Translations under genes and position numbers: made by a program
The notes under the pieces: model-generated
Database searches by the model: none
What the model saw: only the letters and a program-made list of their open reading frames with translations
Told to the model about the DNA's origin: nothing
Shown: positions 156-14,924 of the stretch, in pieces
Layout of the letters: every line of letters starts with the position of its first letter
How positions within the stretch are numbered: the stretch's first letter is position 1
From: Leeuwenhoekiella sp.
GTDB taxonomy: Bacteria > Bacteroidota > Bacteroidia > Flavobacteriales > Flavobacteriaceae
Direction of reading: 5' to 3'
Length of the DNA stretch: 64,000 nucleotides
Assembly (NCBI GenBank): GCA_002708845.1
Contig: PAPI01000022.1
Coordinates: 372,001 to 436,000, forward strand

Positions 156-1418
156 TTGGATTTAGACCCAAAGAAAATACTGGTTGTAACCGACTCCATT
201 AACGCCGAAGATAGCAGTGGCTCTAAGGCTAATGTTGCTTTTATTAAAAGTTTGGTTTCTTCTGGTTATAAGGTGAGTGTTATACACTATACCCAGCGTG
301 AATCTCAGGTAATGGGAGCAAGTTGCTTTTTGGCAGAACAACGGAGAACGAATATATTCTATATCCTTGGAGGTATACAGCGTACTGCTCAGCGTAATTT
401 GGATGTAGATTGGTCAGTATTTTTGGAGAACAGCTTTGGATTTAGTTTTACATTCTTCAACGATACTAAATCTCTTGTAAAAAAGATCAAAAGCTTTAAT
501 GTTCGCAATTTTGATTTAGTAATAACCTTAAGTAAAGGGGAAAGTTTTCGACCCCATTATGCATTAGTACAATTACCTGAGTGGCACGAGAAATGGCTGG
601 CTTACGTTCACGATCCATATCCTTTTCAGCATTACCCCAAACCCTATACTTTTGTTCCTAAGGGCGCAAAGCAGAAAGATCATTTTTTTCAAAAGGTAGC
701 TTCTCAGTGTAGATATGCAGGCTTTCCCTCGCGTCTTTTAGCAGAGCATATGATAGGATTTTACCCCTTGTTTAACGAGAAATCGGTGATCATCCCACAT
801 CAATACGATAATGAGATTACAGAGGTTTCACTGCCTTCTTTTTTTAAGGAAAATGTGTTCAACATCCTTCATACAGGGAACTTAATTGGCGGAAGATCTC
901 CACAGGGTTTGCTTGAGGGATTTCAATTATTTTTAGATACTCATCAGGAAGCAAGAGGGAATGCCAATTTATATTTGGTGGGCCCTTCCAGCAATTATAA
1001 ACAATTGATACGATCGTTTGCATCCATTGCGCAGTTTATCTATCACCCGGGCGTTTCCTATGCTGAATCTTTGGCGTTACAACAAGCCGCAACTGTAAAC
1101 CTTATTATTGAAGCGAGTGATACCGACTTTAGTCCGTTTTTACCGGCAAAAATGGCGCACAATGTATTTTGTGATAAACCAATACTTGCGCTAAGTCCAA
1201 AACAGAGCGAGGTTAGAAGACTGCTTGGGGATGAGTACCTCTGGCAGACTGAAGCAGACGACTCAGAGCAGATTGCCAAAATTATCTCTGAGCTTTATTT
1301 CAAATGGAAAAATACAAAGGTAAACTCCTGGCGTTTAGATCGCCCCGATTTACAGGCTTATTTTTCATCGGAATACCTCAATAAACAGATTCAAAGTCTC
1401 CTTGATGCCTCTGCTTGA
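156..1418 (+). CDS. GT4-like (GT-B fold) glycosyltransferase
   Basis: A 420-residue protein that probably transfers a sugar from a nucleotide donor during assembly of the surface polysaccharide. The N-terminus ILVVTDSINAEDSSGS resembles the first Rossmann strand and loop of GT-B enzymes. The C-terminal half has the donor-side pattern: ILHTGNLIGGRSPQGLLEGF, then LYLVGPSSN, then FLPAKMAHNVFCDKPILAL. The start is TTG, chosen because it follows the previous stop by three bases and no upstream alternative exists. It overlaps the next gene. Donor and acceptor cannot be told from sequence alone. Confidence 0.75.
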   Translation: MDLDPKKILVVTDSINAEDSSGSKANVAFIKSLVSSGYKVSVIHYTQRESQVMGASCFLAEQRRTNIFYILGGIQRTAQRNLDVDWSVFLENSFGFSFTFFNDTKSLVKKIKSFNVRNFDLVITLSKGESFRPHYALVQLPEWHEKWLAYVHDPYPFQHYPKPYTFVPKGAKQKDHFFQKVASQCRYAGFPSRLLAEHMIGFYPLFNEKSVIIPHQYDNEITEVSLPSFFKENVFNILHTGNLIGGRSPQGLLEGFQLFLDTHQEARGNANLYLVGPSSNYKQLIRSFASIAQFIYHPGVSYAESLALQQAATVNLIIEASDTDFSPFLPAKMAHNVFCDKPILALSPKQSEVRRLLGDEYLWQTEADDSEQIAKIISELYFKWKNTKVNSWRLDRPDLQAYFSSEYLNKQIQSLLDASA

Positions 1419-2319
1419 TTCCCAACAGGTAAGCATACTGATAACCACGTACAACCGTAAAAAGGAGCTGATTTTCACCCTAAATACCTTGCGAGATGTT
1501 ATTAGTCCTGACGGGATTTACATTTGGGATGATGCCTCTACAGACGGCACTTTTGAATATATTTCTAAAGAATTTCCGGAGATTAATATGTTTCAGAATA
1601 CAGAAAATAAGGGATTGATAGCTAACCGGAATCACCTGATGCAAGCCGTGACTACAGAATATGTTATTTCCCTTGACGATGACGCAAATTTTTTAAATCC
1701 TAAAGAATTAAAAAAAGCAGTATCCTTTATGCGTGAGAACTGCAATTGTGCGGTTTTATCATTCCGACTTTTCTGGGATTTAAATAAACCAGCAAGTCAA
1801 AACACAAGTGAAGAAGTCTATCAGACCGGTAATTTTCTGGGAGGTGCACACCTGATGCGTAAAAAAGCCTGGGATAACTGTATAAAATCCTATCCAGAAT
1901 GGTATCATTTTTACGGAGAGGAAGATTTTGCCTCTATGAAATTATTTAAAGCAGGACAAAGCGTGTTTTATTTTCCAAAAGTGCTCCTTCATCATCGCGT
2001 ATCTCTGAGAAGTCGAAAAAAAAGCGCTGAAAATACCCGCTTAAGAACCAAATGGGCTTTGCAGGCTGCCTGGAGTAATTATTTGATTTTTTACCCAAAA
2101 CAAAAAGCCTGGTTTAAAATTATGTATTCCATAAAGGAACAAGTAAGGCTGAAATTTTTAAAAGGAGATTTCAGTATTCTGAGAACGCTAGGTTCAGCCG
2201 GAATAGCGCTAATTCAAAATAGGCACTATCGCAAAAAGCTGGATTTACGTTTTTCTAACGAAGAACTTCAAACCTATTTGTCACTCCCTCAAGCACCCGT
2301 CTTTTGGAAACCGGAATAA
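1405..2319 (+). CDS. GT2 family glycosyltransferase
   Basis: An inverting GT-A type sugar transferase. The N-terminal nucleotide-binding part reads VSILITTYNRKKEL, followed by a WDDAST segment and the metal-binding acidic cluster DDDANF. A later GEEDF motif fits the catalytic-base region of GT2 enzymes. No membrane segments are seen, so it likely works at the cytoplasmic face on a lipid-linked acceptor. ATG at 1405 is preferred to the TTG immediately before it. It overlaps the previous gene by 14 bp and the next by 16 bp, which suggests translational coupling. Confidence 0.85.
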   Translation: MPLLDSQQVSILITTYNRKKELIFTLNTLRDVISPDGIYIWDDASTDGTFEYISKEFPEINMFQNTENKGLIANRNHLMQAVTTEYVISLDDDANFLNPKELKKAVSFMRENCNCAVLSFRLFWDLNKPASQNTSEEVYQTGNFLGGAHLMRKKAWDNCIKSYPEWYHFYGEEDFASMKLFKAGQSVFYFPKVLLHHRVSLRSRKKSAENTRLRTKWALQAAWSNYLIFYPKQKAWFKIMYSIKEQVRLKFLKGDFSILRTLGSAGIALIQNRHYRKKLDLRFSNEELQTYLSLPQAPVFWKPE

Positions 2320-3125
2320 ACCTTTCGGAAATCGCACTGTTGACTACGGTGGCCAATTTTGATCTGTATAAAAAAACCAGACCTTATCAGCCGGCTGGAA
2401 TTCGAAAAATCGTCATTGATGGTCGGGAAGGTATGTATGGGCTGGATAGTTTACTCTATACATTTGAAAAGTTACCGCTTAGCGGCATCAAATGGTTGAT
2501 CCTGGCAGATGAAGATGTTTTATTTCTGGAAAATAAAGCGCTTGTAGACATCATCAAAGAAATGGATTCGGCTAATTATACAGTCGCGGGTATAAGAGAT
2601 GGTGGGACAATGCCAAATCGCAGGCATAATCCCTATGTTCCGAACACCTTTTTTTGTATTCTTGATTTTCAGGCTATTTCCGGAATTTATTATAGAAAGG
2701 AGATACAAGAACAGCAGTTTATAAACGCTGATGAGTTTCGGGAAGATTTAGCAGGTTTAAAAGTAGGTTTTGACAGGACTTCGCTGTATGAACCCTACTA
2801 TCGGTTCTTTTTATGGCTTAAGCGGAAGGATCACAAATTTCTGTTTCTAGAAGCCGACCTGTTACATCCGGATACAGACGAATTAGCAACGGAAGTATAC
2901 GGGTTAAATAAAAAAAGAATCCTCATTCATACCTGGTATGCGCGGGCTTATGGGAGAAATGAACAGCAGACAAAGCGTATTGATGCCATTATAGAAACTT
3001 ATGCTCCAAGTCTTAATAGTAAACCCGATGAAGCTGAGATTTATAAGGATCATTTTTATAAATATAAGTTAGGTTTCAGAAAGTTGAGAAGAAGAGTTCA
3101 AACCAGAATTGATAAACTATTTTGA
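2304..3125 (+). CDS. unrecognised protein in polysaccharide cluster, possible glycosyltransferase
   Basis: A 273-residue protein that I cannot place in a named family. It contains IKWLILADEDVLF, an acidic motif that could be the DxD-like metal site of a GT-A transferase, and a conserved-looking segment around GGTMPNRRHNPYVPNTFF. The C-terminal 30 residues are strongly basic. It lies between two GT2 genes and overlaps both, with TTG as the only available start near the previous stop. Position suggests a role in the same sugar-assembly pathway, possibly as a transferase with an unusual specificity; this is inference. Confidence 0.55.
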   Translation: METGINLSEIALLTTVANFDLYKKTRPYQPAGIRKIVIDGREGMYGLDSLLYTFEKLPLSGIKWLILADEDVLFLENKALVDIIKEMDSANYTVAGIRDGGTMPNRRHNPYVPNTFFCILDFQAISGIYYRKEIQEQQFINADEFREDLAGLKVGFDRTSLYEPYYRFFLWLKRKDHKFLFLEADLLHPDTDELATEVYGLNKKRILIHTWYARAYGRNEQQTKRIDAIIETYAPSLNSKPDEAEIYKDHFYKYKLGFRKLRRRVQTRIDKLF

Positions 3126-4069
3126 TGAGTGATTTGGTTTCTATAATTATTCCCGTTTACAATCGGGAAGCCTATTTACGACCGACGCTTCAATCAATAC
3201 AAACACAAACTTATGGCAATTGGGAGTGTTTTCTTGTTGATGATCACAGTACAGATACTTCTTTGTATATATTAAAAGAGTTTGAAAAAGAAGATCCTCG
3301 ATTTAAAGTATTGGTTCGCCCCCATAGCCGTCCCAAAGGAGCAAACGCCTGCCGTAATTATGGTTTCGAAAAAGCGTCAGGCAAATACATAAACTGGTTT
3401 GATTCTGATGATCTTATGGAACCGGATTTTATTCGGAATAAGGTTGCTGCTTTAGATGCGCAAACAGATATTGTTTTGTCAAAAACAAAAATCTATTATG
3501 TCACAGATCAAACTGAAGTCTTTGAGAAGCGTACAAACTTGACGTCAAACCTACTTGAAGATTTTATAACCCGTAAGATATCCTGGTATTTACCGGATCC
3601 CATGTATGCCAAAACGTTTTTGGATAGGCATAATCTAGTTTTTGACGAACAGCTTTTAGGTGGACAGGATCGGGATTTTTTTCAGCGAATATTGTTGAAT
3701 GAACCGAAAATGATCGTTATAGATGACTATTTAACTACTTACGTAAAACACGGGGCGAGTATTTCAGAAAAAATATACAAACAAGGGAATTTTAAGATTA
3801 CCCAATCAAGGGTTTGTGCTCTGATTTCCTATATTCAAACCTTGAAATCTAAGGGTAAGTTGTCTCCTTTGCTCAAAACGTTTTATGCTACTGAATTGCG
3901 AAAAATGATCCCGCTGGTTTACAGGGATTCAAAAACTACTCAATCCATTTTAAAAATGTTGATGAGACTAAGTTCTTTCAATTTTGAAACACTTAAAAAT
4001 TGGAGTAAGGTGAGTTTAGGGCTTTCCAGTTTGATGATTACCGGTAAAGGTCAAAAGCTTTTCAAATGA
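3125..4069 (+). CDS. GT2 family glycosyltransferase
   Basis: A 314-residue GT-A transferase. The first 45 residues are classic for the family (VSIIIPVYNREAYL, then ECFLVDDHSTD). The metal-binding DxD equivalent is NWFDSDDLMEPDF near residue 100, and GGQDRDFFQR fits the acceptor and catalytic-base region. ATG at 3125 overlaps the preceding TGA by one base (TGATG), a typical coupled start, and is preferred to the TTG three bases earlier. The gene ends inside the start of neuA. Substrate unknown. Confidence 0.87.
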   Translation: MSDLVSIIIPVYNREAYLRPTLQSIQTQTYGNWECFLVDDHSTDTSLYILKEFEKEDPRFKVLVRPHSRPKGANACRNYGFEKASGKYINWFDSDDLMEPDFIRNKVAALDAQTDIVLSKTKIYYVTDQTEVFEKRTNLTSNLLEDFITRKISWYLPDPMYAKTFLDRHNLVFDEQLLGGQDRDFFQRILLNEPKMIVIDDYLTTYVKHGASISEKIYKQGNFKITQSRVCALISYIQTLKSKGKLSPLLKTFYATELRKMIPLVYRDSKTTQSILKMLMRLSSFNFETLKNWSKVSLGLSSLMITGKGQKLFK

Positions 4070-4725
4070 AAAATTACCTTGTATTAATTCCAGCTCGTGC
4101 CGGTTCGCAAAGACTTCCTGGCAAAAATATACGGCAATTAGGTGATAAACCACTTATTGGTTACAGTATTGACTATGCTAAGGAAAATGATTTGGAAGAT
4201 ATTGTGATAACATCAAATGATACGGGTGTTCTCGATTATGCGGTTAAAAGTGGAGTACAGACTGTAGAGAGACCCCATGCATTAGCCGGTCACCAAGAGC
4301 CGGTAGTCACAGCTATTCAACACGCAGTAAATCAACTCCGTCAGCAATACGATGCGGTTATTTTGTTACAGCCTACAAACCCGTTAAGACCGAAAGGTCT
4401 TCTTAAAGATGCCATCGCGATTTTTGAACGGGAGGATTGTGATAGTCTAATGACCGTTTCCCGAAATGAGCATAAACTGGGAACCATTTCAAATAATCGG
4501 TTTACACCATACAATTATAAAATGGGTCAGCGCAGTCAGGATTTAGAACCCTTGTATTATGAAAATGGACTGCTCTATATTTTTAAAACGGAATTATTAA
4601 AAGAGGGAAAACTTCTCGGGGAAAACAACCATCCCTTAGTTGTTGATCACCCTTTTGCCGAAATCGACATTGATACGGAAGCCGATTTTAAAAAGGCTAA
4701 GTTGTACTTGAAATTTTATAACTAA
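4066..4725 (+). CDS. neuA: acylneuraminate (nonulosonate) cytidylyltransferase
   Basis: Activates a nonulosonic acid (sialic acid or a relative) with CTP to give the CMP-sugar used by a transferase. The signature is at the N-terminus: [16 protein letters not shown], the CTP-binding loop of the CMP-NeuAc/CMP-KDO synthetase family. QPTNPLRP and [10 protein letters not shown] are further family motifs. The length of 219 residues fits the single-domain bacterial enzyme. It overlaps the preceding GT2 by 4 bp and is followed directly by neuB and neuC. Neu5Ac, legionaminic and related acids use very similar enzymes, so the exact sugar is open. Confidence 0.9.
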
Positions 4726-4741
4726 GAATAAAACAAAACTT

Positions 4742-5782
4742 TTGAATCCATACATCCAAATCGAGAATCGTAAAATAGGACGGGATTACCCACCACTGGT
4801 CATAGCCGAAATCGGCATCAATCACGAAGGTTCACTTCAGGTTGCAAAGGAGATGGTTGATGCAGCTTACCGGGCCGGGGCAGAGGTCGTCAAACACCAG
4901 ACACACATTGTTGAAGATGAAATGAGTGGTGCTGCCAAAAAAGTAATACCCGGGAATGCAGCTGTTTCTATTTACGAGATTATGAAGCGTTGCGCGCTTG
5001 ATGAATCCGATGAAATTGCCTTAAAAAACTATGTGGAAGAAAAAGGAATGATTTTCATCTCCACACCATTTTCCCGTGCTGCAGCAAACCGGCTTCAGGC
5101 TATGAATGTTGCGGCCTATAAAATCGGTTCGGGAGAATGCAATAATTATCCCTTACTAAAACACATTGCAGGCTTTGGCAAACCGGTCATCCTTAGTACA
5201 GGTATGAATACCCTTGAAAGTATTTCTAAGGCAGTTCAGATTTTTAAAGATGCCGGTATCTCTTTCGCTTTGCTGCATACTACCAATTTATATCCAACGC
5301 CCACCCATTTAGTCAGACTGGGCGCAATGACTCAAGTTCACGAGGCATTTCCTGATGTACCCTTTGGCTTATCAGATCATACGTTAAATAACAATGCCTG
5401 TCTGGGTGCAGTGGCTTTAGGTGCCTCCATCTTAGAACGTCATTTTACAGATCATATGCAGCGCACAGGTCCGGATATTGTTTGTAGTATGGATGAGAAA
5501 GCTTGCAGCGAACTCATAAAATCCAGTAATGAAATCTGGCAGATGCGCGGGGGCGAAAAAGCTCCGGCAAAGGAAGAACAGGTGACCATTGATTTTGCAT
5601 TCGCCACCCTTTGTACCATCGCTCCGATCGAAAAGGGAGAAGTCTTTACGGAAAAAAACATATGGGTAAAACGGCCGGGAACCGGTGAGATTTTGGCCGA
5701 ACATTTTGAAGATATTCTTGGAAAAAAAGCAACACGCGCAATTGCTGAAGATGAACAGTTGAAAAGGAGCGATATCCTGTGA
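4742..5782 (+). CDS. neuB: N-acetylneuraminate synthase family enzyme
   Basis: Condenses an N-acetylmannosamine-type sugar with phosphoenolpyruvate to form the nine-carbon nonulosonic acid. The TIM-barrel domain (about 1-270) contains [45 protein letters not shown] and HTTNLYPTP; the last 60 residues form the antifreeze-like SAF domain that closes the active site in dimers. From memory the [11 protein letters not shown] segment resembles Campylobacter NeuB1, the Neu5Ac enzyme, more than LegI; this should be tested by phylogeny. TTG start, 16 bp after neuA; it overlaps neuC by 4 bp. Confidence 0.92.
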
Positions 5783-6903
5783 AAAGAAGAATAGCTTTCC
5801 TTAGCGGTACGCGGGCAGATTTTGGGAAATTGAAATCGCTGATACAAGCAGTAAACGATGCCTCAGATTTTGAGTATGGTATTTTTGCTACCGGCATGCA
5901 TTTACTGGAGCAGTATGGTCTAACCGTTATTGAGATCGAAAAGGCCGGTTTTCAAAATATCTATCGCTTTCCAAATCATACCTCTGAGGCTACGATGGAC
6001 CTGACCCTGGCTAAAACCATAGAAGGTTTTTCAACCTATTTAAAGACTTTTCAACCGGACTTGATTATCGTGCACGGCGACCGGGTTGAAGCCTTGGCAG
6101 GGGCGATTGTGGGTTCGTTAAATAATATTTTGGTGGGTCATATTGAAGGCGGTGAACTTTCGGGGACCGTTGACGAACTCATTCGGCATTCAGTCAGTAA
6201 ATTGAGTCACATTCATTTTGTCTCTCACGAGACAGCAGCTAAACGCCTGGTGCAGATGGGCGAACTCGAGAGCAGTATTTTCAATATTGGTTCAGCAGAT
6301 CTGGATGTTTTGTTTAGCGATAGCCTACCGCCTTTAAAAACTGCAAAAGCCTACTACGACATTCCTTTTAAGAATTATGCAGTAGTCTTATTTCATTCCG
6401 TGACCACCGCGCATCAGGAAACAGCGGCTCATGCAGCTGACTTTGTTGAAGCCCTTTTGGAAGATGATCAGGATTATATTGTGATTTATCCCAATAACGA
6501 CCTGGGGTCTTCTGCTATTTTAGAGGGGTATCAGCAATTTGAAGGACATTCCAGATTCAGGCTTTTTCCGTCTTTGCGGTTTGAATATTTTATTACCTTG
6601 CTCAAAAACGCAGCCTTTTTGATAGGAAACAGCAGTGCCGGGATTCACGAGGCACCTTATTTAGGAATACCTACCATTAATGTGGGCAGACGCCAGGAAA
6701 ACCGCGATTTAAAAACGGATAGCATCATTCACGTGGATAATACAAAAGCAGCTATTTCCGCCGGTATTGCTTCCGCAAAAGCACTAAACGTTAATCCAAA
6801 AGGCAAAAAATCGGCTAAAACAGCCGCCTCCGGTTTTCTGGAAGCATTAAGAAGCGAAACATTTTGGCAAATTGATCATCAGAAGCAATTCCGGGATCTT
6901 TAA
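5779..6903 (+). CDS. neuC: hydrolysing UDP-GlcNAc 2-epimerase family enzyme
   Basis: Converts a UDP-N-acetylglucosamine-type sugar to the free 2-epimer (ManNAc or a 2,4-diacetamido analogue) that NeuB uses. GT-B-like epimerase fold: [13 protein letters not shown] at the N-terminus, [30 protein letters not shown] and [19 protein letters not shown] are the family landmarks. The GTG start overlaps the neuB stop by 4 bp, so neuA-neuB-neuC form one block. It could equally be called LegG/NeuC; no genes for making bacillosamine precursors are seen here, which mildly favours Neu5Ac. A palindromic repeat begins four bases after its stop. Confidence 0.88.
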
Positions 6904-6906
6904 AGT

Positions 6907-7061
6907 GTCACTTCGACCTTGTCACTTCGAGTGAATTAAGTGTAGCGATAGTGAAACTTAATTTGTATCGAGAAGTATTCTTTGTTAGAGTAGTTCTTGT
7001 TAAATAGACTTCTCGATACAATTTTTTCGAACTTCCGTTCTCAAAAATCACTCGAAGTGAC
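6907..7061 (+). repeat. nested palindromic element, left copy
   Basis: Outer 14-bp perfect inverted repeat 6921-6934 / 7048-7061 (GTCACTTCGAGTGA). Inner 14-bp perfect inverted repeat 6963-6976 / 7008-7021 (TTGTATCGAGAAGT) with a 31-nt loop. Between the left arms lies a smaller hairpin, ATTAAGT 6935-6941 / ACTTAAT 6956-6962, with TAGCGATAG in its loop; the right side has a weaker GAAC/GTTC hairpin. An extra GTCACTTCGA precedes at 6907-6916. A diverged copy lies at 7416-7571 on the other side of the nuclease gene. Repeats of this look are, to my recollection, dispersed in flavobacterial genomes. Confidence 0.85.
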
Positions 7062-7119
7062 ATTATCGATTTAGATTTTTCATAAGTACTTTTTTCTTTA
7101 AAGATTAATTGATGGTTAT

Positions 7120-7410
7120 ATGAAAGTTTATAGTGTCTACATCCTTAAATGTAGAGATGAAACGTATTATACCGGTATAACGTCTGATCTTTGGGGGCGG
7201 ATTGAACAACATCAATCCGGGAAGTATAAAAACTCCTATACATATAGTAGAAGGCCAATTGAATTGGTTTATTATTGTGAGTTCACAGAGCCGGATTTAG
7301 CAATTGAATTTGAGAAAAGGGTTAAAAATTGGTCGCAGGCAAAGAAAGAAGCTTTAATAAATGGAGAATATGACAAGTTGCCGAATCTGGTTAAAAAGCG
7401 ATTTAAATAA
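7120..7410 (+). CDS. GIY-YIG single-domain nuclease
   Basis: A 96-residue protein made of one GIY-YIG (URI) nuclease domain, which cuts DNA with a metal ion, like the catalytic part of UvrC and some homing enzymes. The two half-motifs are VYIL (residues 6-9) and YYTGI; the arginine of the first helix is in WGRIEQH and the catalytic glutamate is in FEKRVKNW. No extra DNA-binding domain is present. The length is normal for the stand-alone COG2827-type family, whose function is poorly known. It is sandwiched between two related palindromic elements (58 bp and 5 bp away) inside an otherwise gap-free operon. Confidence 0.9.
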   Translation: MKVYSVYILKCRDETYYTGITSDLWGRIEQHQSGKYKNSYTYSRRPIELVYYCEFTEPDLAIEFEKRVKNWSQAKKEALINGEYDKLPNLVKKRFK

Positions 7411-7415
7411 TATTT

Positions 7416-7571
7416 GTTACTTCGAACGTAGTCGAAAAGCGAGTGGCTGGAGCATAGCGATAGCGGAGCTTCAGGCGTATCGAGAAGTCTTCTTTGATAG
7501 GATGTTTTCGCAAACCAAACTTCTCGATACACCAGTCTCGACTTAAGGTCTCGACCGGCACTCGAAGTGAC
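7416..7571 (+). repeat. nested palindromic element, right copy
   Basis: A diverged copy of the element at 6907-7061. The inner inverted repeat is 7477-7488 / 7519-7530 (GTATCGAGAAGT, 12 bp perfect). The outer arms are 7416-7425 (GTTACTTCGA) and 7562-7571 (TCGAAGTGAC), one mismatch. TAGCGATAG recurs at 7455-7463, as in the left copy, and both inner loops begin with TTCTTTG. The right side contains GTCTCGAC twice (7535-7542, 7548-7555). Further related sequence (CACTTCAAGTG at 7614-7624) runs up to the start of the next gene. Confidence 0.8.
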
Positions 7572-7621
7572 ATTCTCGAAACATTTGCTTTCGACTTTTT
7601 GGCCTTAATTAGACACTTCAA

Positions 7622-9061
7622 GTGACACTGAAAAATCAAATAACGCAATCAATTTTGAATTCTGAATCCCCAAAAACTTTAGGAATTGTCATTACAGATG
7701 GTGTCGGTTTTCGCAACTTCGTTTTAAGTACATTTCTTGAAGAGGCGGCACGCTCTTTTCCTAAAATAGTCATCTTTTCCGGACTGCCCTATACTGCTTT
7801 TCCAGAGCTGGATGCAGCGAAATTCACGATTGTTGAACTTCCGGTTTTTACCGAGACTAAGAAGAACTGGTTTTGGCGTAAACTCAAAGAAGTCGCGCAC
7901 CTTCAAAAGCATAAAACCAACCCGGGAATCGCAGATAATTATGAGATGAATAAGGCTAAAAGCTGGAGTCCGCACGGTATTTTAGTTCGTGCAGTTTATG
8001 CGGTCAGTTCGGTTTTTAATAGCGAAAAGAACATTCTTAAGTATGAGCAATTTCAGGAACAAAGCTTTGCAAATGATGCTGTCGTAAAACAGTACGGGCA
8101 ATTAATGCAGGAACACCAACCCGATTTATTGTTTTTCACCCATCAGCGTCCCCCTTTTATTGCTACGCTGGTTTTTTGGGCGAAAAAATTAAAAATACCC
8201 ACCGCATCCTTTATTTTTTCGTGGGATAATCTGGCCTCTAAAGGCAGGATGGCGGCAAGCTTTGACTATTTTTTAGTTTGGAGTGAATTGATGAAAATTG
8301 AGTTGCTTCGGTTTTACCCCTTTACAAAATCCGAAGCCGTTTCCATTGTAGGTACGCCACAATTTGAACCCTATGTATTACCTCAATTTGACATTCCAAA
8401 GGCTGAGTTTTATGAAACTTTCGGGCTAAATTCCAAAGAGAAAATCCTGTGCTACAGCTGTGCCGACGCAACCATTGGCCCCAACGATCCATTGGTGATC
8501 GCAACCCTGGCCGAAGGGATTCGCAACGGAGCGATTAAACCCTGTCAACTCCTGGTACGTACCTCACCTGCGGAAGACGAGAGCCGCTTTGCAGAAACCA
8601 AAGCGAAGTACCCGGAAATCAAATGGAATCACCCCAAATGGGAACTTACCCGTGAGGGGCACCCTGAGCCATGGTCGCAGCGCGTACCAACCCTCGAGGA
8701 TCTGAGTATGCTCAAAGCAATACTTAAATTTTGCGATCTCAACGTCAATATGTTATCTACTATGAGCCTTGACTTTATGTTGTTTGAAAAGCCGGTTGTA
8801 AATACGGCCTTTGGGAATGGGAACAACGGACTCTACAACGATCAGAGGTTTTTACACTACGAGCATTATGATAATGTGGTTAAGAGTGGTGCGGTGAAGA
8901 TTGCAAAGAACCAAGATGAACTTTTTAACGCAGTAAACGCCTATCTGGAAAATCCTGAACTTGATCTGGAAAACCGAAAAAAACTTATCGCAATGCAAGT
9001 GGGTAAACCCCTAGAAAAAACCACCAGGGCTTGTGTTGAAGCATTAAAAGCGAATCTATGA
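7622..9061 (+). CDS. probable GT-B fold transferase of the polysaccharide cluster
   Basis: A 479-residue protein that I do not recognise exactly. TLGIVITDGVGFRNFVL at the N-terminus, the central FIFSWDNLASKGRM and FLVWSELMKIELLRFYP followed by VGTPQFEPY, then a C-terminal half with LEDLSMLKAI and FMLFEKPVVNTAFG resemble the two Rossmann halves of UDP- or CDP-glycerol-type transferases. No signal or membrane segment. The GTG start lies within repeat-like sequence (CACTTCAAGTG); a TTG at 7655 is an alternative. It overlaps the next gene by 4 bp. Whether it handles the CMP-nonulosonate made by neuABC is open. Confidence 0.6.
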   Translation: MTLKNQITQSILNSESPKTLGIVITDGVGFRNFVLSTFLEEAARSFPKIVIFSGLPYTAFPELDAAKFTIVELPVFTETKKNWFWRKLKEVAHLQKHKTNPGIADNYEMNKAKSWSPHGILVRAVYAVSSVFNSEKNILKYEQFQEQSFANDAVVKQYGQLMQEHQPDLLFFTHQRPPFIATLVFWAKKLKIPTASFIFSWDNLASKGRMAASFDYFLVWSELMKIELLRFYPFTKSEAVSIVGTPQFEPYVLPQFDIPKAEFYETFGLNSKEKILCYSCADATIGPNDPLVIATLAEGIRNGAIKPCQLLVRTSPAEDESRFAETKAKYPEIKWNHPKWELTREGHPEPWSQRVPTLEDLSMLKAILKFCDLNVNMLSTMSLDFMLFEKPVVNTAFGNGNNGLYNDQRFLHYEHYDNVVKSGAVKIAKNQDELFNAVNAYLENPELDLENRKKLIAMQVGKPLEKTTRACVEALKANL

Positions 9062-10149
9062 ATACCAAAAGATTAGCGGTAGTTTGTAATTATGTTTTAC
9101 GTCCGGATCGTATTGGCGGGATGGATCGTTTTTTTGTGGCCTATGATCGGGCTGCAAAGGCTAAAGGTTATGACGTTGACTGGTTTTTTCCGGATGTACT
9201 TGAGTTGGATTTTTATACGGATGTTAATGTGTTTTCGGCGGAAGGAAACTCGAGTGTTGAAGCTTTTTTTCTAGAACACCTTCAAGAAACGGGCAAGCTA
9301 TATACCGCACTGGTCACGCATTTTACCGAACTCTGCACACCATTCTATAAAAAAGCCAAACAGGGCGGAATGATCAAAACAGTAATCGCCGTAGATCACA
9401 ATCCACGTCCATTAAACGGTTTTCCTATTAAAAAACAGCTCAAAAATAGACTTAAAGGTTATTTGCATCATAAGGCAATAGACCGGTTTATAGGGGTGAG
9501 CAGCTATACGGCCCGGCATATTGTAAAGGATCTGGGCAAAGTAGTGGCCCGTAAAACCGGGGTGATTTACAACGGGATTGATACTTCTGTCTTTAAAAAG
9601 AGAAAAAGTCACGACCTGAAACCGGAAGGCAAGGTTCAGTTTGTTGTGGTTTCCCATCTGAGGGAATCTAAAGGGCTACAGGATTTAATCGATGCCTTGT
9701 CGATGCTAAAGCCTGAGGTGCAAAATGAGTTACACATAACGGTTTACGGTGAAGGTCCGCTGGAAGAAGGTCTTAAACAGCAGGCCAAAGATAAAGCGGT
9801 TGATCATTTATTGACATTTAGAGGCAGTTCTTCAGAGATTCCGAAGATTCTAGCCGATTATGAGTACCTCATTCAACCTACGTATATGGAATGCTTCAGT
9901 CTTTCAATTCTGGAAAGTTTATCTGCAAATGTTCCTGTGATTACCACAACTGTTGGCGGCAATCCTGAGATTATTACAGATGGAGAAAACGGGTTTTTAT
10001 TTCGCCCAAAAGATAAAGACGCTCTTGCCCGTATTATTTCTGAAGTTGTAACAGGTGAGCGTGATATAAATAGCGATACTTCATTACTCATAGAAAAAGA
10101 GTATTTCCTGGGCCGTATGGTCGCAGAACATATAAATTTACTGGACTGA
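9058..10149 (+). CDS. GT4 family glycosyltransferase
   Basis: A 363-residue retaining GT-B transferase. The N-terminal acceptor domain starts RLAVVCNYVLRPDRIGGMDRF; the C-terminal donor domain has VVVSHLRESKGLQDLIDAL, VYGEGPLEEGL and the family motif MECFSLSILESLSANVPVI with the E-x7-E spacing, followed by TTVGGNPEII. ATG overlaps the previous stop by 4 bp (ATGA). Probably adds one sugar of the repeat unit in the cytoplasm. The linkage cannot be read from sequence. Confidence 0.88.
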   Translation: MNTKRLAVVCNYVLRPDRIGGMDRFFVAYDRAAKAKGYDVDWFFPDVLELDFYTDVNVFSAEGNSSVEAFFLEHLQETGKLYTALVTHFTELCTPFYKKAKQGGMIKTVIAVDHNPRPLNGFPIKKQLKNRLKGYLHHKAIDRFIGVSSYTARHIVKDLGKVVARKTGVIYNGIDTSVFKKRKSHDLKPEGKVQFVVVSHLRESKGLQDLIDALSMLKPEVQNELHITVYGEGPLEEGLKQQAKDKAVDHLLTFRGSSSEIPKILADYEYLIQPTYMECFSLSILESLSANVPVITTTVGGNPEIITDGENGFLFRPKDKDALARIISEVVTGERDINSDTSLLIEKEYFLGRMVAEHINLLD

Positions 10150-11288
10150 TGCATATTGCTTTTTTAACTCCTGAATATCCTCATCCCGATTTTAATCGTA
10201 GCGGAGGTTTGGGGACCAGCATTAAAAATCTGGCTGCTAGTCTCGTGGAAGCCGGGGAAACCGTGACGGTTTTTGTGTACAGTCAGGCACAGGATAAACA
10301 ATTTGAAGATCAGGGTATTCATATTCATAGTATCGCAAAGCGGAAGTATAAATTCGCTGGCTGGTATTTGCACCGCAAGTTTTTACAGCGTTACATCAAC
10401 CGGGTGATCTTACTACATAAAATTGATGTGCTTGAGGCACCAGATTGGACCGGGATTACTGCTTTAATGCGTTTCAAATGCCCTTTGGTCATTCGTTGTA
10501 ACGGCAGCGACGGTTATTTTTGCCATTTAGATAATCGAAAGCAAAAGCCTAAAAACCGGTGGTTTGAACATCGGGCCCTTAAAAATGCTGATCATATACT
10601 GGCAGTAAGTGCATTTACTGGTAAGCTGACAAAAGAAATTTTTGAATTGAATAAGGAAATACAGGTGATTCCCAATTCGATTGACGTGGAACAGTTTAGG
10701 CCCATGGAAGCACCTCAAATTCCGAATCGTATTTTGTATTACGGAAGTATTATTCGTAAAAAAGGAGTTTTGGAACTCGCCAAAATTTGCAATTTCATTT
10801 TTGAACAGAATCCTGATGCACGACTTATTCTTGCCGGTAATGATGTCAACGATGTATTTACAGGAAGATCTACTCAGGAACTTTTTATGGAAAGTGTCAG
10901 GCCTGAATTTCGCAAACATATCAAGTTTAAAGGATTATTGGCTTATGAGGGAGTTCAGGAAGAAATTGCCAAAGCTGCCGTAATTGTATTGCCCAGTTTT
11001 GCAGAGGCACTGCCGATGACCTGGATAGAAGCAATGGCGATGGAAAAAGCTTTAGTAACTTCTGATATTGGTTGGGCAAACGAGGTAATGCGAGATGGTG
11101 AAACCGGATATACAGTTGATCCTAAAAACCATAAGTATTATGCCGATGCTGTTCTAAAATTACTGGATTCTAAAGATTTGAGAAGTCAAATGGGAGGTAA
11201 TGCTAGAAAACGAGTCATTGAAAAATTTGCAACAGCTATAGTGGTTAAACAAAATCTGGAATTTTATAAAAGCGTCCTAAAAGCGTGA
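10149..11288 (+). CDS. GT4 family glycosyltransferase
   Basis: A 379-residue GT-B transferase. The glycine-rich acceptor loop is GGLGTSIKNLAASLVEAG; NSIDVEQF precedes the donor domain, which contains LYYGSIIRKKGVLEL and PSFAEALPMTWIEAMAMEKAL with the two catalytic-site glutamates. SDIGWANEVMRDGETG is the nucleotide-sugar region. The start codon shares one base with the previous stop (TGATG). It belongs to the same coupled gene string as its neighbours. Confidence 0.88.
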   Translation: MHIAFLTPEYPHPDFNRSGGLGTSIKNLAASLVEAGETVTVFVYSQAQDKQFEDQGIHIHSIAKRKYKFAGWYLHRKFLQRYINRVILLHKIDVLEAPDWTGITALMRFKCPLVIRCNGSDGYFCHLDNRKQKPKNRWFEHRALKNADHILAVSAFTGKLTKEIFELNKEIQVIPNSIDVEQFRPMEAPQIPNRILYYGSIIRKKGVLELAKICNFIFEQNPDARLILAGNDVNDVFTGRSTQELFMESVRPEFRKHIKFKGLLAYEGVQEEIAKAAVIVLPSFAEALPMTWIEAMAMEKALVTSDIGWANEVMRDGETGYTVDPKNHKYYADAVLKLLDSKDLRSQMGGNARKRVIEKFATAIVVKQNLEFYKSVLKA

Positions 11289-12826
11289 TTCTTTTAAAAC
11301 ATACCGGGAGTAAACCTGTCGCTGTTTCAAAAGACGGGCAGCCTCTGGAATTCCAATTTCAAAATCAAGCGGTAAGTGCCGCTTGTTTTCTTTTAGCCGA
11401 AAAGTTTCCGGATGAATCTCTGATATGGTTTCACGAGGATGTAGAACACAACCTGAATCTCGAATTCATTCAAAATCTTTCGAGTAAATTGGAAATGCTG
11501 AGTTATGCTGCAAAACAACCTTTGGCAATAGCAGAAGTAATGGGGTTTGTAGATCAAAGTGTTTTTTTTAGAATTCAGCCCGACGTAAAATATCCAACCT
11601 GGTTGATGAGCAGTGCCGTAGGTTCAGTAAGCTGTAAAGCGCTACTACATTTTAAGAAAGACATTCCTGCCTATCCTAATTTTGATTTATTTCTATGCGT
11701 GCTGGCAAAAACCGGTATGCTCAAAGGATTAAGGGTATATAGCGAGCCGAGACTGATCAGGAATTCTGCAGAAAATGCAGTTTCATTCACAAAAAATCTG
11801 AATACAACCTATACCATTATAGCCGCTCTTATGGGTGCGAAATGGCTGCTACTTTTTGAGCTGCAACGCTTACTATACCAGAAAAAACAGAATATTCTTC
11901 GATTGCTAAAATCGTTTCAAATCAGGCGAATTAATAGCGCTGCAATCCCGGAATTGACTATCGATACATCAGAATTAGATGAGGTAAAGAATGAGTTAAA
12001 CTTTGACGTCGTTATTCCTACGTTGGGCCGTAAGCAGGCTTTAAAACAAACGCTAGACGATCTTTCAAGCCAGATTCTAGTGCCTCAATGCGTAATCCTA
12101 ATTGAGCAAAATCCCGAAGTGAACGCTGTGTCAGAACTTGATTATTTACAAACCGAAAGCTGGCCTTTTGAAGTCAAGCATACTTTTACCCATCAAACCG
12201 GAGCCTGTAACGCGCGTAATTTGGCACTGGATCAGGTTGAGGCAGACTGGGTTTTTTTAGCCGATGACGATTTACGCATACCTAAAGATTTTTTAAAACA
12301 GGCCCAGGCGTTTATTCAGGCTGAAAAGCCTCAGGCTTTTACCGTAAGTTGTCTGCAGGACGGAGAAATCGAACCCGAAAAAACAGTAATTCAATGGCCT
12401 GCTTTTGGTTCGGGTTGCAGTTTTGTCAAAGCTTCAACTGTGAAAACTATACGTTTTGATCTGGCGCTCGAACATGGCTTTGGAGAAGATGCCGATTTTG
12501 GGATGCAATTACGCAAAGCAGGTGTCGATATTTTGTACAATCCGTTTTTAAAACTTATTCATTTAAAGGCTCCGTCTGGAGGTTTTAGAAAACCGATTGA
12601 GAAACCCTGGGATAAAGAGAATCCTGCTCCCAAACCTGCGCCAACCGTGTTGGCTTCTATAATCAAGCACGCAACACCTGCTCAGATTCTCGGGTATAAG
12701 ACCCTATTATTTCTAAAATTTTATAAGCTTCAGCAGATTAAAAATCCGTTTTCCTATATTCGGCAAATGCGTAAAAGATGGGAGGTGAGTTTGTTTTGGG
12801 CTAAAAAATTGTTGAATACGAAATGA
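11285..12826 (+). CDS. two-domain protein with C-terminal GT2 glycosyltransferase
   Basis: A 513-residue protein. Residues from about 237 on form a GT2 domain: NFDVVIPTLGRKQALKQTL, then FLADDDLRIP (DxD), and FGEDADFGMQLRKAG in the catalytic-base region. The first 230 residues are not a recognisable family; they have their own acidic segment (LIWFHEDVEHNL) and could be a second, degenerate transferase-like domain, since WFHEDVE sits where a DxD would be. GTG start overlapping the previous stop by 4 bp; the gene overlaps the next by 4 bp. The function of the N-terminal domain is unknown. Confidence 0.78.
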   Translation: MILLKHTGSKPVAVSKDGQPLEFQFQNQAVSAACFLLAEKFPDESLIWFHEDVEHNLNLEFIQNLSSKLEMLSYAAKQPLAIAEVMGFVDQSVFFRIQPDVKYPTWLMSSAVGSVSCKALLHFKKDIPAYPNFDLFLCVLAKTGMLKGLRVYSEPRLIRNSAENAVSFTKNLNTTYTIIAALMGAKWLLLFELQRLLYQKKQNILRLLKSFQIRRINSAAIPELTIDTSELDEVKNELNFDVVIPTLGRKQALKQTLDDLSSQILVPQCVILIEQNPEVNAVSELDYLQTESWPFEVKHTFTHQTGACNARNLALDQVEADWVFLADDDLRIPKDFLKQAQAFIQAEKPQAFTVSCLQDGEIEPEKTVIQWPAFGSGCSFVKASTVKTIRFDLALEHGFGEDADFGMQLRKAGVDILYNPFLKLIHLKAPSGGFRKPIEKPWDKENPAPKPAPTVLASIIKHATPAQILGYKTLLFLKFYKLQQIKNPFSYIRQMRKRWEVSLFWAKKLLNTK

Positions 12827-13815
12827 TAGTTTCACTTATAGTTTGCACCTACCAGCGTGCCGAAGCATTAAACAGACTTTTAGCTTCAGTGGTTACGCAA
12901 GATATTTATCCGGATGAGATTTTGATTATTGACGGATCACGGGACAATAAAACCCGCGAAAGCCTTTCGCAGCAAGACATTAAAAATCTCAGGTATTTTC
13001 AAGTGCAGGATGCAGACCGCGGACTTACCCGCCAGCGGAATTTTGGTATTGAAAAATTAAATCCCGAAGCCGAGATCGTTTGCTTTTTAGATGATGATGT
13101 GGTTTTAGAACCCGGTTACTTTACTGCGGTTCTTGATGCTTTTGATTCTGATCCTGATATTGTGGGTGTAGGAGGTGTGGCAATCAATGAAAACCTTTGG
13201 AAACCCAGTGAGCGCAAAACTTCTACGGACAAAATCTATGTACTGGAGGGCTTTGAGCGCAAGGAGTCTCAGCGTTTTTATCTGCGGAATAAACTGGGTT
13301 TACAATCCCCAGATCTTCCAGGAATAATGCCTGCTTTTTCACACGGCAGAACCTATGGCTATCCGTTAACCGGAAAAAATTATGAGGTTGATTTATTGAT
13401 AGGGATGGCGATGAGTTTTCGTCGTGAGGTGATTGATGCTGAAAAATTCAGCCTTTATTTTGATGGATACGGACTCTATGAAGATGCAGATTACAGCCTG
13501 CGTGCTCTAAACTATGGGAAAAACGTGCTATGTACTGCAGCTCGTTTAGAACACCATCATGATCCGGCGGGAAGACCAGATCTTTATAAATACGGCAAAA
13601 TGGTCATCCGTAACGGTTGGTACGTATGGCGCGTAAAATACCCCAGCCCGAACCTTAAGGCTCGATTCAAATGGAACGCAACAGCATTGGTGCTAACCTT
13701 GATCCGGTATAGCAATGTGCTGACAGCTTCTGACAAAAAAGGAGCGTTTAACGAAGCAACCGGCAGGGTCGTGGGTTGGTGGAGTTTACTATTTAACAAG
13801 CCTAAATACAGGTGA
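12823..13815 (+). CDS. GT2 family glycosyltransferase
   Basis: A 330-residue GT-A enzyme. MIVSLIVCTYQRAEALNRLL and ILIIDGSRDN form the nucleotide-binding half; FLDDDVVLEPGYF is the metal-binding DxD; FDGYGLYEDADYSLRA carries the ED pair expected for the catalytic base. The region around HHHDPAGRPDLYKYGKM is conserved-looking but unassigned. ATG in the ATGA overlap with the preceding gene; it overlaps the next by 4 bp. Likely adds a sugar to the lipid-linked repeat unit. Confidence 0.88.
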   Translation: MIVSLIVCTYQRAEALNRLLASVVTQDIYPDEILIIDGSRDNKTRESLSQQDIKNLRYFQVQDADRGLTRQRNFGIEKLNPEAEIVCFLDDDVVLEPGYFTAVLDAFDSDPDIVGVGGVAINENLWKPSERKTSTDKIYVLEGFERKESQRFYLRNKLGLQSPDLPGIMPAFSHGRTYGYPLTGKNYEVDLLIGMAMSFRREVIDAEKFSLYFDGYGLYEDADYSLRALNYGKNVLCTAARLEHHHDPAGRPDLYKYGKMVIRNGWYVWRVKYPSPNLKARFKWNATALVLTLIRYSNVLTASDKKGAFNEATGRVVGWWSLLFNKPKYR

Positions 13816-14924
13816 AATTTGCAGTAATCACCCATATCAAGCATTTTAAGAAGAACGGCGAATATTATTCCTATGCGCCTTATGTGCGGGAGATGAATCT
13901 TTGGTTTCAGCACGTTGATGAAGTTCTGGTGGTGGGTACTTTTAGTCCAGAAAAACCGGGTGCAATTGACTTGCCTTATAGCGCGAAGAATCTTCAATTT
14001 AAATCGTTACCGGATTTTGATATCCTCAGTTTAAAATCTGTTTTCAAAACGCTGAGGCTGCTTCCTTCAGTTTTAAAAATTATTTATAAAACGATGCAAG
14101 AAGCAGATCACATCCATTTGCGTTGTCCCGGAAACGTGGGCTTGCTGGGTGCATTGGTTCAGATTTTTTTTCCGCATAAACCCAAAACTGCAAAATATGC
14201 CGGTAACTGGCAACCCGGTGCGAAACAGCCCTGGAGCTACCGTCTTCAAAAATGGATACTAAGTAATACCTTTTTGACCAAAAATATGCAGGTGCTGGTC
14301 TATGGAGAATGGGCCAATCAGAGCCCAAATGTCAAAGCCTTTTTTACGGCCACATATAGTGAAAAGGATAAGACGGAAATCCCCAGGCGCAAGTACGATT
14401 TACCCTTGCGTTTTCTTTTTGTAGGCAGCCTTTCATCCGGTAAGCAACCGGTTTATGCTTTAGAATTGGTAGCTGAATTGATTGAACGAGGCTTTCCTTC
14501 AGAATTGCACGTGTATGGGGAAGGCCCAGAGCGCGAGCATTTGAATAAAGTGGCTAAGGAATTAAAAGTGGAGCACCAGTTATTTTTGCACGGGAATCAG
14601 CCTTCGGAAGCAGTAAAGGAAGCCTACAAAAAGAGTCATTTTTTGATGCTTCCCTCAAAAAGTGAAGGCTGGCCAAAAGTGGTTGCTGAAGCCATGTGGT
14701 GGGGTGTGATACCTATTGCCACTCCGGTTTCTTGCGTGCCGTGGATGTTGGATTCCGGAAAACGCGGAGTGCTTTTAGAAATGGACTTAGATAGCGATGC
14801 TAAAAAGCTTCAGGAACAGTTGCTCGATAAAGAAAAACTTAAAACAACGGCTGCTGAAGCCGCGATTTGGTCCAGAAACTATACCTTAGAGCGTTTTGAC
14901 TCTGAAATTAAAAAACTGCTTTAA
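13812..14924 (+). CDS. GT4 family glycosyltransferase
   Basis: A 370-residue GT-B transferase. The C-terminal donor domain is clear: LRFLFVGSLSSGKQPVYALEL, ELHVYGEGPEREHL, and LPSKSEGWPKVVAEAMWWG with the E-x7-E pair. The N-terminal half contains HLRCPGNVGLLGALV and is more variable, as expected for the acceptor domain. GTG start overlapping the previous stop by 4 bp. A possible TTG start of the following gene lies inside its 3' end. Confidence 0.87.
   Translation: MKFAVITHIKHFKKNGEYYSYAPYVREMNLWFQHVDEVLVVGTFSPEKPGAIDLPYSAKNLQFKSLPDFDILSLKSVFKTLRLLPSVLKIIYKTMQEADHIHLRCPGNVGLLGALVQIFFPHKPKTAKYAGNWQPGAKQPWSYRLQKWILSNTFLTKNMQVLVYGEWANQSPNVKAFFTATYSEKDKTEIPRRKYDLPLRFLFVGSLSSGKQPVYALELVAELIERGFPSELHVYGEGPEREHLNKVAKELKVEHQLFLHGNQPSEAVKEAYKKSHFLMLPSKSEGWPKVVAEAMWWGVIPIATPVSCVPWMLDSGKRGVLLEMDLDSDAKKLQEQLLDKEKLKTTAAEAAIWSRNYTLERFDSEIKKLL

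Follow-up and report, generated by a model that had tools for sequence, protein, structure and literature searches.

We analyzed a 64,000-nucleotide stretch of the genome of Leeuwenhoekiella sp. (GenBank assembly GCA_002708845.1, contig PAPI01000022.1, positions 372,001 to 436,000; hereafter the window, on contig C22 of a 4.35-Mb genome), in which the gene for a very small GIY-YIG nuclease lies among repetitive extragenic palindromes (REPs). REPs are widespread non-coding repeats in bacteria. The plus-strand gene row at 156-14924 is tightly packed: in the list of open reading frames (ORFs), its junctions overlap or measure at most 16 bp, as the original prediction, made from the letters alone, had noted. 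The single exceptional junction spans 718 bp, from a gene end at 6903 to a gene start at 7622. It holds an inserted unit (6906..7627, no strand assigned) with the ends TGTCACTT and AAGTGACA, which were located by junction comparison with relatives and by the terminal inverted repeat. The unit first proposed at 6907-7625 thus proved real, with slightly shifted limits.

The nuclease gene (7120..7410, plus strand) encodes 96 amino acids and was identified by a Pfam PF01541 match (E 1.2e-16), residue conservation, and an AlphaFold2 model. Around it, the insert contains five REP-like units and a truncated one, TGTC-tagged and palindromic, those at both ends being degenerate. Upstream of the gene, unit 1 (6920..6976, plus strand, an exact motif site at G000:C22:378920) has the tag TGTC, the stem ACTTCGA...TCGAGAAGT, and an inner hairpin, and unit 2 (7008..7062, minus strand, motif site G000:C22:379049) has its tag at the right (TGACA); together they form palindromic element 1. 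Downstream, unit 3 (7415..7488, plus strand), recognized by sequence, repeat comparison, and folding, has the variant tag TGTT and a small internal insertion, and forms palindromic element 2 together with unit 4 (7519..7572, minus strand, motif site G000:C22:379559). This element follows the gene closely, as predicted, but begins about 4 bp and not 5 bp past the stop codon. The truncated unit TGTCACTTCGACCT (6906..6919, plus strand, assigned by sequence) makes up the left end of the insert, and the degenerate unit 5 (7573..7627, minus strand, assigned by sequence, folding, and the same unit type in relatives) closes it. The two flanking elements are related, with stretches of 75-77% identity, which bears out the predicted arrangement of a GIY-YIG gene between two related palindromic elements. 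As single-stranded DNA, element 1 (6920-7061) was calculated to fold with -33.1 kcal/mol (z -8.35, 0 of 200 shuffles equal or better), and a weaker fold was obtained for element 2 (7416-7560; z -2.58, matched by 1 of 200 shuffles). The exact sequence TGTCASTTCGAGTG occurs seven times in the genome, and three of these seven sites lie at the window locus, a concentration that exceeds chance.

Comparison within the genus showed that the window unit is an insertion. The upstream gene is present in 11 of 13 genus genomes, including that of the window, and the junction behind it is filled in three of the 11 (the window's genome, G005, and G010) and empty in eight; G010 and G011 were scored from the junction listing, the motif-pattern comparison having missed both. 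The upstream gene is 95% identical in G002 and G009, and in these two genomes with an empty site the motif of the next gene follows after 167-168 nt compared with 853 nt in the window; relative to G002, the window junction is longer by a net 686 nt. The empty sites of the relatives contain no palindrome at all. A second copy is found in G005, at the junction that precedes the upstream gene, and the copies of G003 and G004 lie one gene farther upstream.

Further signs of movement and decay were found on Sphingobium plasmids, where one site between fnrL and a response regulator gene occurs in three states. In TomTYG46, TomMM7A, TomTYG73, and TomMM15, the site can be aligned in a gene-bearing state, with a frameshifted gene in TomTYG73; TomTYG64 and TomTYG74 have a solo palindrome, the segment between two ACCCCGGG copies being gone; and TomTYG72 and TomTYG65 have neither gene nor palindrome. 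These states bear on the possibility that the nuclease is a homing endonuclease that cuts solo palindromes, with repair from a gene-bearing copy installing the gene and the palindromes spreading otherwise. The occurrence of one and the same site with the gene between two REPs and with a solo palindrome would suit such homing, as would the frequent position of the gene between the two units of a pair. However, the change at the Sphingobium site is not polarized and is explained by simple deletion as well, gene-bearing units are found at sites where relatives have no palindrome (the window junction; TomTYG72 and TomTYG65), and copies in the same genome share the unit and not the flanks; we consider homing unlikely. 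Free-standing GIY-YIG homing endonucleases likewise have a small mobile gene with presence/absence polymorphism, but no intron or gene target was seen here, and the unit has a bounding repeat family of its own that also occurs without the gene.

Within a genome, homology between copies stopped about 6-47 bp outside the tags, beyond which the flanks were unrelated; L182 and L296, as well as L297 and L298, have the unit plus about 17-47 bp per side in common. Copies at unrelated sites with such sharp boundaries are the mark of a transposable element. In Sphingobium sp. DEHP117, units with the gene occupy two sites, and at one of these three full units follow each other in tandem. We also took 12 gene-less short repeat pairs from five genomes, 11 of which were delimited, and detected remnants of the nuclease gene in three of these 11 (in DEHP117 and Sphingomonas cavernae) with E values of 6e-47, 8e-15, and a weak 3e-4 from a 16-nt match, whereas shuffled queries gave 0 of 550 at or below 1e-3. 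The clear remnant cases are internal-deletion derivatives that relate to the gene-bearing unit as a miniature inverted-repeat transposable element (MITE) does to its parent. MITEs, too, are short gene-less elements that arise by internal deletion from gene-bearing ones, the difference being that the parent enzyme here is not a known transposase and that no target duplication was seen. In sum, the nuclease gene and its repeats behave as one unit: orthologous sites either have it or do not, and within genomes it is copied, gives rise to tandems, and breaks down to gene-less pairs. Several genomes show such tandem duplication: at L042, L043, L074, L078, L094, L233, and L297, two or three nuclease copies of the same orientation are spaced about 0.5-2.9 kb apart.

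The association of repeats and gene was quantified with an arm score, defined as the best complementarity between the 200 nt upstream and the 200 nt downstream of a gene and independent of any motif. The loci, picked by similarity to the window protein, came from a search of 299 family genomes (28 new loci and 60 more stretches) and a search of 60 relatives (its loci and 20 stretches); L013 and L019, which lie inside longer loci, alignments below 55 residues, overlapping matches, and duplicate flanks were left out of the test. The 141 distinct Bacteroidota GIY-YIG genes had a median score of 20 compared with 11.5 for 160 neighboring ORFs, and a score of at least 18, a cut-off set after a first look, was reached by 84/141 and 11/160, respectively, and by 16 of 25 further Bacteroidota GIY-YIG genes. 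These neighboring-ORF controls rule out chance pairing of the arms. When arms from different loci were mispaired, 599 of 2800 pairings still reached 18, because repeats of one type are shared among loci, and the true pairs exceeded them. With motif expressions that were written after the flanks had been inspected, a recognized unit was present within 300 nt of 120 of the 141 genes. The commonest layout (56/141) has the gene within one pair, between the two nearest units with tags pointing outward, whereas the window gene lies between two complete element pairs. Units within 200 nt accompanied 66 of 69 genes with 57% or more identity to the window protein, 57 of 73 with 48-57%, and 11 of 24 below 48%.

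Vertical inheritance of a single locus was ruled out, as the 158 Bacteroidota loci form 80 groups by shared flanking genes (that of the window comprising 15 loci), and 53 loci found with a Sphingobium query form 41. Repeats are also not a general property of GIY-YIG genes: none were recognized by eye at B. subtilis yazA, two Cupriavidus genes, an Acetoanaerobium gene, and a Sphingomonas paeninsulae gene, and of the larger GIY-YIG frames of the window genome, two had arm scores of 10 and 14.5 and the third ran off its locus. The genetic link of the nuclease gene and the repeats is strong. The original prediction had named two outcomes that would speak against it, elements without statistical link to GIY-YIG genes and a lack of empty sites in close relatives, and neither occurred.

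The same arrangement was found in other phyla. When 84,980 species genomes were scanned with the Sphingobium protein, the above-mentioned 53 loci emerged, nearly all labeled Sphingomonadales, the others being one Caulobacter metagenome-assembled genome (MAG) and a few MAGs of broader label. Arm scores of at least 18 were obtained for 47/53 loci compared with 3/76 neighboring ORFs, and at a cut-off of 25 the numbers were 44/53 and 0/76. The typical layout is CGTC-ACCCCGGG-CTTGA-CCCGGGGT-CCCGCT, the gene, and the same sequence inverted, mostly 0-20 bp from the gene; ACCCCGGG-CTTGA-CCCGGGGT was present in 57 of 107 distinct units from a search that required an 8-9 bp stem with a 4-5 nt loop. On plasmids, of which we inspected 10 of 49 matches in a first batch and 12 of 34 in a second, units were seen by eye on both sides of the gene in Methylobacterium (two), Planktothrix, and Sphingobium and on one side in Sphingomonas parapaucimobilis in the first batch. 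In the second, 10 of 12 had CGTC/TGTC-type or related palindromic units on both sides, including Azospirillum lipoferum 4B, Sinorhizobium meliloti, and Neisseria gonorrhoeae, and Photobacterium and Rhizobium tumorigenes were negative for flanking repeats. By score, 8 of the 11 loci scored from this batch reached 18, and Aeromonas, positive by eye, had only 12. At L165, on the Planktothrix agardhii plasmid NZ_LR882964.1, the GIY-YIG gene lies among TGTCATTCTGAG repeats between a type IIL restriction enzyme gene and DISARM drmA. A layout unlike the inverted pairs is seen at L266 (Sinorhizobium sp. K101), where a direct repeat of about 110 bp, containing a CACAGGAAT-type palindrome, borders the nuclease gene on either side.

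The typical Sphingomonadales unit is a CGTC REP of the superfamily defined by Di Nocera et al. (2013; PMC3733652), which includes Neisseria dRS3 and Rickettsia RPE-4/RPE-6 and is described by a CGTC or TGTC tag, an 8-9 bp stem starting with A-T, a 4-5 nt loop, a CCA-like tail, and head-to-head pairs. By eye, the Sphingobium, S. meliloti, A. lipoferum, and Neisseria units agree with this description. The terminal tag is TGTC in the window, CGTC in Sphingomonadales, Rhizobiaceae, Azospirillum, and Neisseria, and CCTC in Methylobacterium, and the head-to-head arrangement is found in elements 1 and 2 of the window, at the 56 tag-outward genes, and in pairs among the Sphingomonadales sites listed. 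In contrast to the superfamily as described, the flavobacterial window units are longer and have an interrupted stem with an inner hairpin, and the repeats here carry a candidate gene. According to the same paper, the superfamily "apparently lack[s] a dedicated transposase," and an association of CGTC REPs with RAYT (REP-associated tyrosine transposase) or other transposase genes is not reported there. GIY-YIG genes flanked by CGTC REPs occur in A. lipoferum, S. meliloti, and Neisseria, taxa that are on the list of Di Nocera et al. In the Sphingomonadales genomes G614-G623, dispersed CGTC units were mostly CGTCACCCCGGACTTGA and nuclease-adjacent ones mostly CGTCACCCCGGGCTTGA, perhaps reflecting two CGTC sub-families with different enzymes.

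The type of repeat follows the clade of the enzyme. Arms vary by clade, for example TGTCACTTCGAGTG, TGTCTCCTCGAGCGCAGTCGAGA, TGTCAGGCTGAGCGCAGTCGAAG, and TGTCACCCTGAGCTTGTCGAAG, and mapping repeat type onto a quickly built tree of 217 proteins, in which many forks are unresolved, required 36 changes compared with a mean of 121.9 after shuffling. Where one genome has both a clade-A enzyme gene and another GIY gene (16 genomes), non-A repeats were near none of the 18 clade-A genes and near 15 of the 20 others; this test rests on the non-A count, because the loose clade-A expression also matches type B (5/20 others), and its repeat-type expressions, too, were drawn up once the flanks had been inspected. 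The exact clade-A motif occurred in 118 of the 299 family genomes, compared with three matches in all for a reversed control pattern, and of the 51 genomes with a clade-A enzyme (E≤1e-32), 43 contained it, compared with 75 of 248 others (Fisher 7e-13). Counted by hand in the ten of these 43 genomes whose sites are fully listed, 26 of 55 motif sites were within 1 kb of a clade-A gene; G296 has 0 of 2. The hairpins themselves are under a pairing constraint with compensatory base changes: in 107 distinct CTGAGC...GTCGAAG-type units, the two outer-stem positions were paired in 202 of 214 cells (mean after shuffling 75, maximum 108), with at least ten fully paired combinations, and in 257 clade-A units 242 were paired compared with 120 after shuffling, in a tally that counts copies and not events. 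Matches to the clade-A unit recur every few kb in G011:C1 (295-322 kb), G010:C8 (588-622 kb), and G005:C38 (53-91 kb), as if these stretches were accumulation zones.

It is conceivable that the nuclease gene is a passenger and that another factor, an IS200/IS605-type transposase or replication slippage, spreads REP arrays that capture or tolerate it. REP-rich genomes with no detected clade-A enzyme do exist, arrays recombine easily and would so yield tandem copies, and in G621 a head-to-head pair 1127 bp apart encloses other sequence with no nuclease match. Nevertheless, one gene family recurs in such repeats in Bacteroidota, Alpha- and Betaproteobacteria, a cyanobacterium, and, more weakly, Aeromonas, the repeats match the enzymes clade by clade, and among the Sphingomonadales sites listed, the spacing of the nuclease unit, 368-375 bp, is found in every one of the eight head-to-head pairs that lie 300-1000 bp apart. 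We regard a mere passenger role as improbable.

The enzyme belongs to the GIY-YIG superfamily by its residues. Among 217 aligned homologues, Y7 was conserved in 212, Y17 in 215, R27 in 214, H31 in 214, and E65 in 213; we take Y7, Y17, R27, and E65 to be the GIY and YIG tyrosines, the arginine, and the metal-binding glutamate. Matches to the window protein were found in 31/60 relatives (E≤1e-5), 134/299 family genomes (E≤1e-12), and 72/296 phylum genomes (E≤1e-10), and the window genome itself has one small GIY-YIG gene, its three other matches lying in frames of 453-604 codons. The AlphaFold2 model (predicted local distance difference test score, pLDDT, 77) has the order strand-strand-helix-strand-helix-helix, and a structure search with it gave UPF0213 as the best match (E 7e-6), followed by Slx1 branched-DNA nucleases (E 2e-3 and above). 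As the model resembles the latter, the enzyme probably acts on branched or hairpin DNA. The single-domain UPF0213/COG2827 proteins (YhbQ, YazA; PDB 1zg2, 1ywl) share fold and size with it, but B. subtilis yazA stands in a compact gene row and has no flanking repeats. The likeness to Slx1, the nearest fold with a known job, could also mean that the enzyme only removes cruciforms or stalled structures made by the palindromes and is kept nearby for the benefit of the host, moving nothing. Such a housekeeping role is highly improbable in our view, as the gene travels with the repeats and is absent from eight of 11 relatives at the window site, decays to frameshifted and deleted copies, and resides in 41 groups of Sphingobium-query loci that share no flanking gene.

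In a report on RAYTs (Nunvar, 2010; PMC2817692), RAYT genes are described as always lying between two inverted REPs, and the same arrangement is found here, so that the RAYT analogy drawn in the original prediction was apt. According to that text, the REPtron, in which GTAG REPs are combined with a RAYT related to the Y1 HUH transposases of IS200/IS605, also shares with our system the dispersed gene-less REP pairs and the co-variation of repeat and enzyme. It differs in the tag, which is TGTC/CGTC here and not GTAG, and in the enzyme, which here is a GIY-YIG nuclease of about 96-100 amino acids: only the PF01541 GIY-YIG domain was found in the window protein, and a Y1 HUH tyrosine transposase was not, so that we do not file it as a REPtron. 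By analogy, the element is best read as REPtron-like, a GIY-YIG nuclease standing where a REPtron has its RAYT. We put the probability at about 0.68 that it is a very small, REP-bounded mobile unit in which the nuclease is the dedicated partner of TGTC/CGTC repeats, as the RAYT is for GTAG REPs. Most likely, the nuclease would recognize the folded unit, either as a hairpin or as a cruciform of two head-to-head units, and would nick or cut it at or near the tag; repair, replication, and recombination by the host would then copy the unit to new sites, and gene-less palindromes would be deletion derivatives carried along in trans. We infer in this scheme the cutting by the enzyme, the position of the cut at the tag, and the enzyme as the cause of copying.

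Several observations weigh against this interpretation. A target-site duplication was not visible at the window junction in comparison with the empty relatives; some transposon families make none. To our knowledge, GIY-YIG enzymes form no covalent DNA intermediate, so that transposition would need host steps and its mechanism should differ from that of RAYTs. The five single units of the window fold unremarkably alone (z -0.93 to -1.85; 8 to 41 of 200 shuffles as good), 8 of the 11 delimited gene-less pairs had no gene remnant at 1e-3, and 5 of the 10 loci of the first plasmid batch, including B. subtilis yazA, had no repeats by eye. Less similar GIY-YIG genes often have no repeats, as only 10 of 24 with less than 48% identity scored at least 18. 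The exact motif was missing in 8 of the 51 clade-A genomes, and conversely, clade-A repeats occur in genomes with no detected partner enzyme: 24 of the 248 genomes in which no clade-A enzyme was found at E≤1e-32 hold at least five clade-A motif sites, although in one of these genomes, G179, an enzyme misses the cut-off only narrowly. Among the Sphingomonadales genomes searched, most dispersed units belong to the subtype CGGACTTGA and most gene-linked ones to CGGGCTTGA; the enzyme may move only its own subtype, the other units being old or served by other clades.

The recurrent pairing of enzyme and repeats in unrelated bacteria suggests that the nuclease is the partner hitherto missing for a whole class of hairpin repeats and spreads them. 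CGTC REPs are one of two REP superfamilies and were reported in 2013 to have no known mobilizing enzyme, and we found no later paper that names one. We lean, by a small measure, toward the wider claim of a new class of transposable elements, REP-GIY-YIG-REP, of about 0.4-0.7 kb, in which the single-domain nuclease cuts folded CGTC/TGTC-tagged hairpins and, by doing so, gives rise to the CGTC REP superfamily and disperses it over several bacterial phyla. If this is true, the element would be a non-homologous counterpart of RAYTs and GTAG REPs and among the smallest autonomous mobile elements, GIY-YIG would join the short list of folds that drive REP-type elements, and the nuclease would be one whose structured target co-varies with it. 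The specific candidate enzyme, with its approximately 100 amino acids, is easily expressed, and matched substrates are available in cultured species, including Sphingobium and Sinorhizobium. The novelty that the original prediction had attributed to a GIY-YIG-based system has stood so far: among the matches listed in a literature search, to which subscription papers and preprints were mostly out of scope, no paper tied GIY-YIG enzymes to REPs, and the term GIY-YIG (in one case GIY) was absent from the accessible text of the 2025 RepRanger paper, a 2024 MITE review, and a 2018 HUH-endonuclease paper.

Contig C15 of the window genome carries two solo elements, L002 and L003, 3.5 kb apart (at about 95.9-96.2 kb and 99.4-99.7 kb), each followed by a different repeat type (CTTCTCGACTGCGCTC...GTGACA). 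Judged by sequence, they look like chimeras of clade-A and clade-B repeat types. Their surroundings are repeat-rich, and a clean orthologous empty junction was sought for them in the relatives and not found. At the window locus itself, the upstream flanking gene is an ORF at 5779..6903 (plus strand), presumably for a NeuC-like epimerase, and the downstream one is an ORF at 7622..9061 (plus strand), whose longest version starts inside the insert end. This start is a GTG at 7622, and an in-frame TTG follows at 7655 beyond the insert; the insert may supply the start codon of the downstream gene, or the start call may be wrong.

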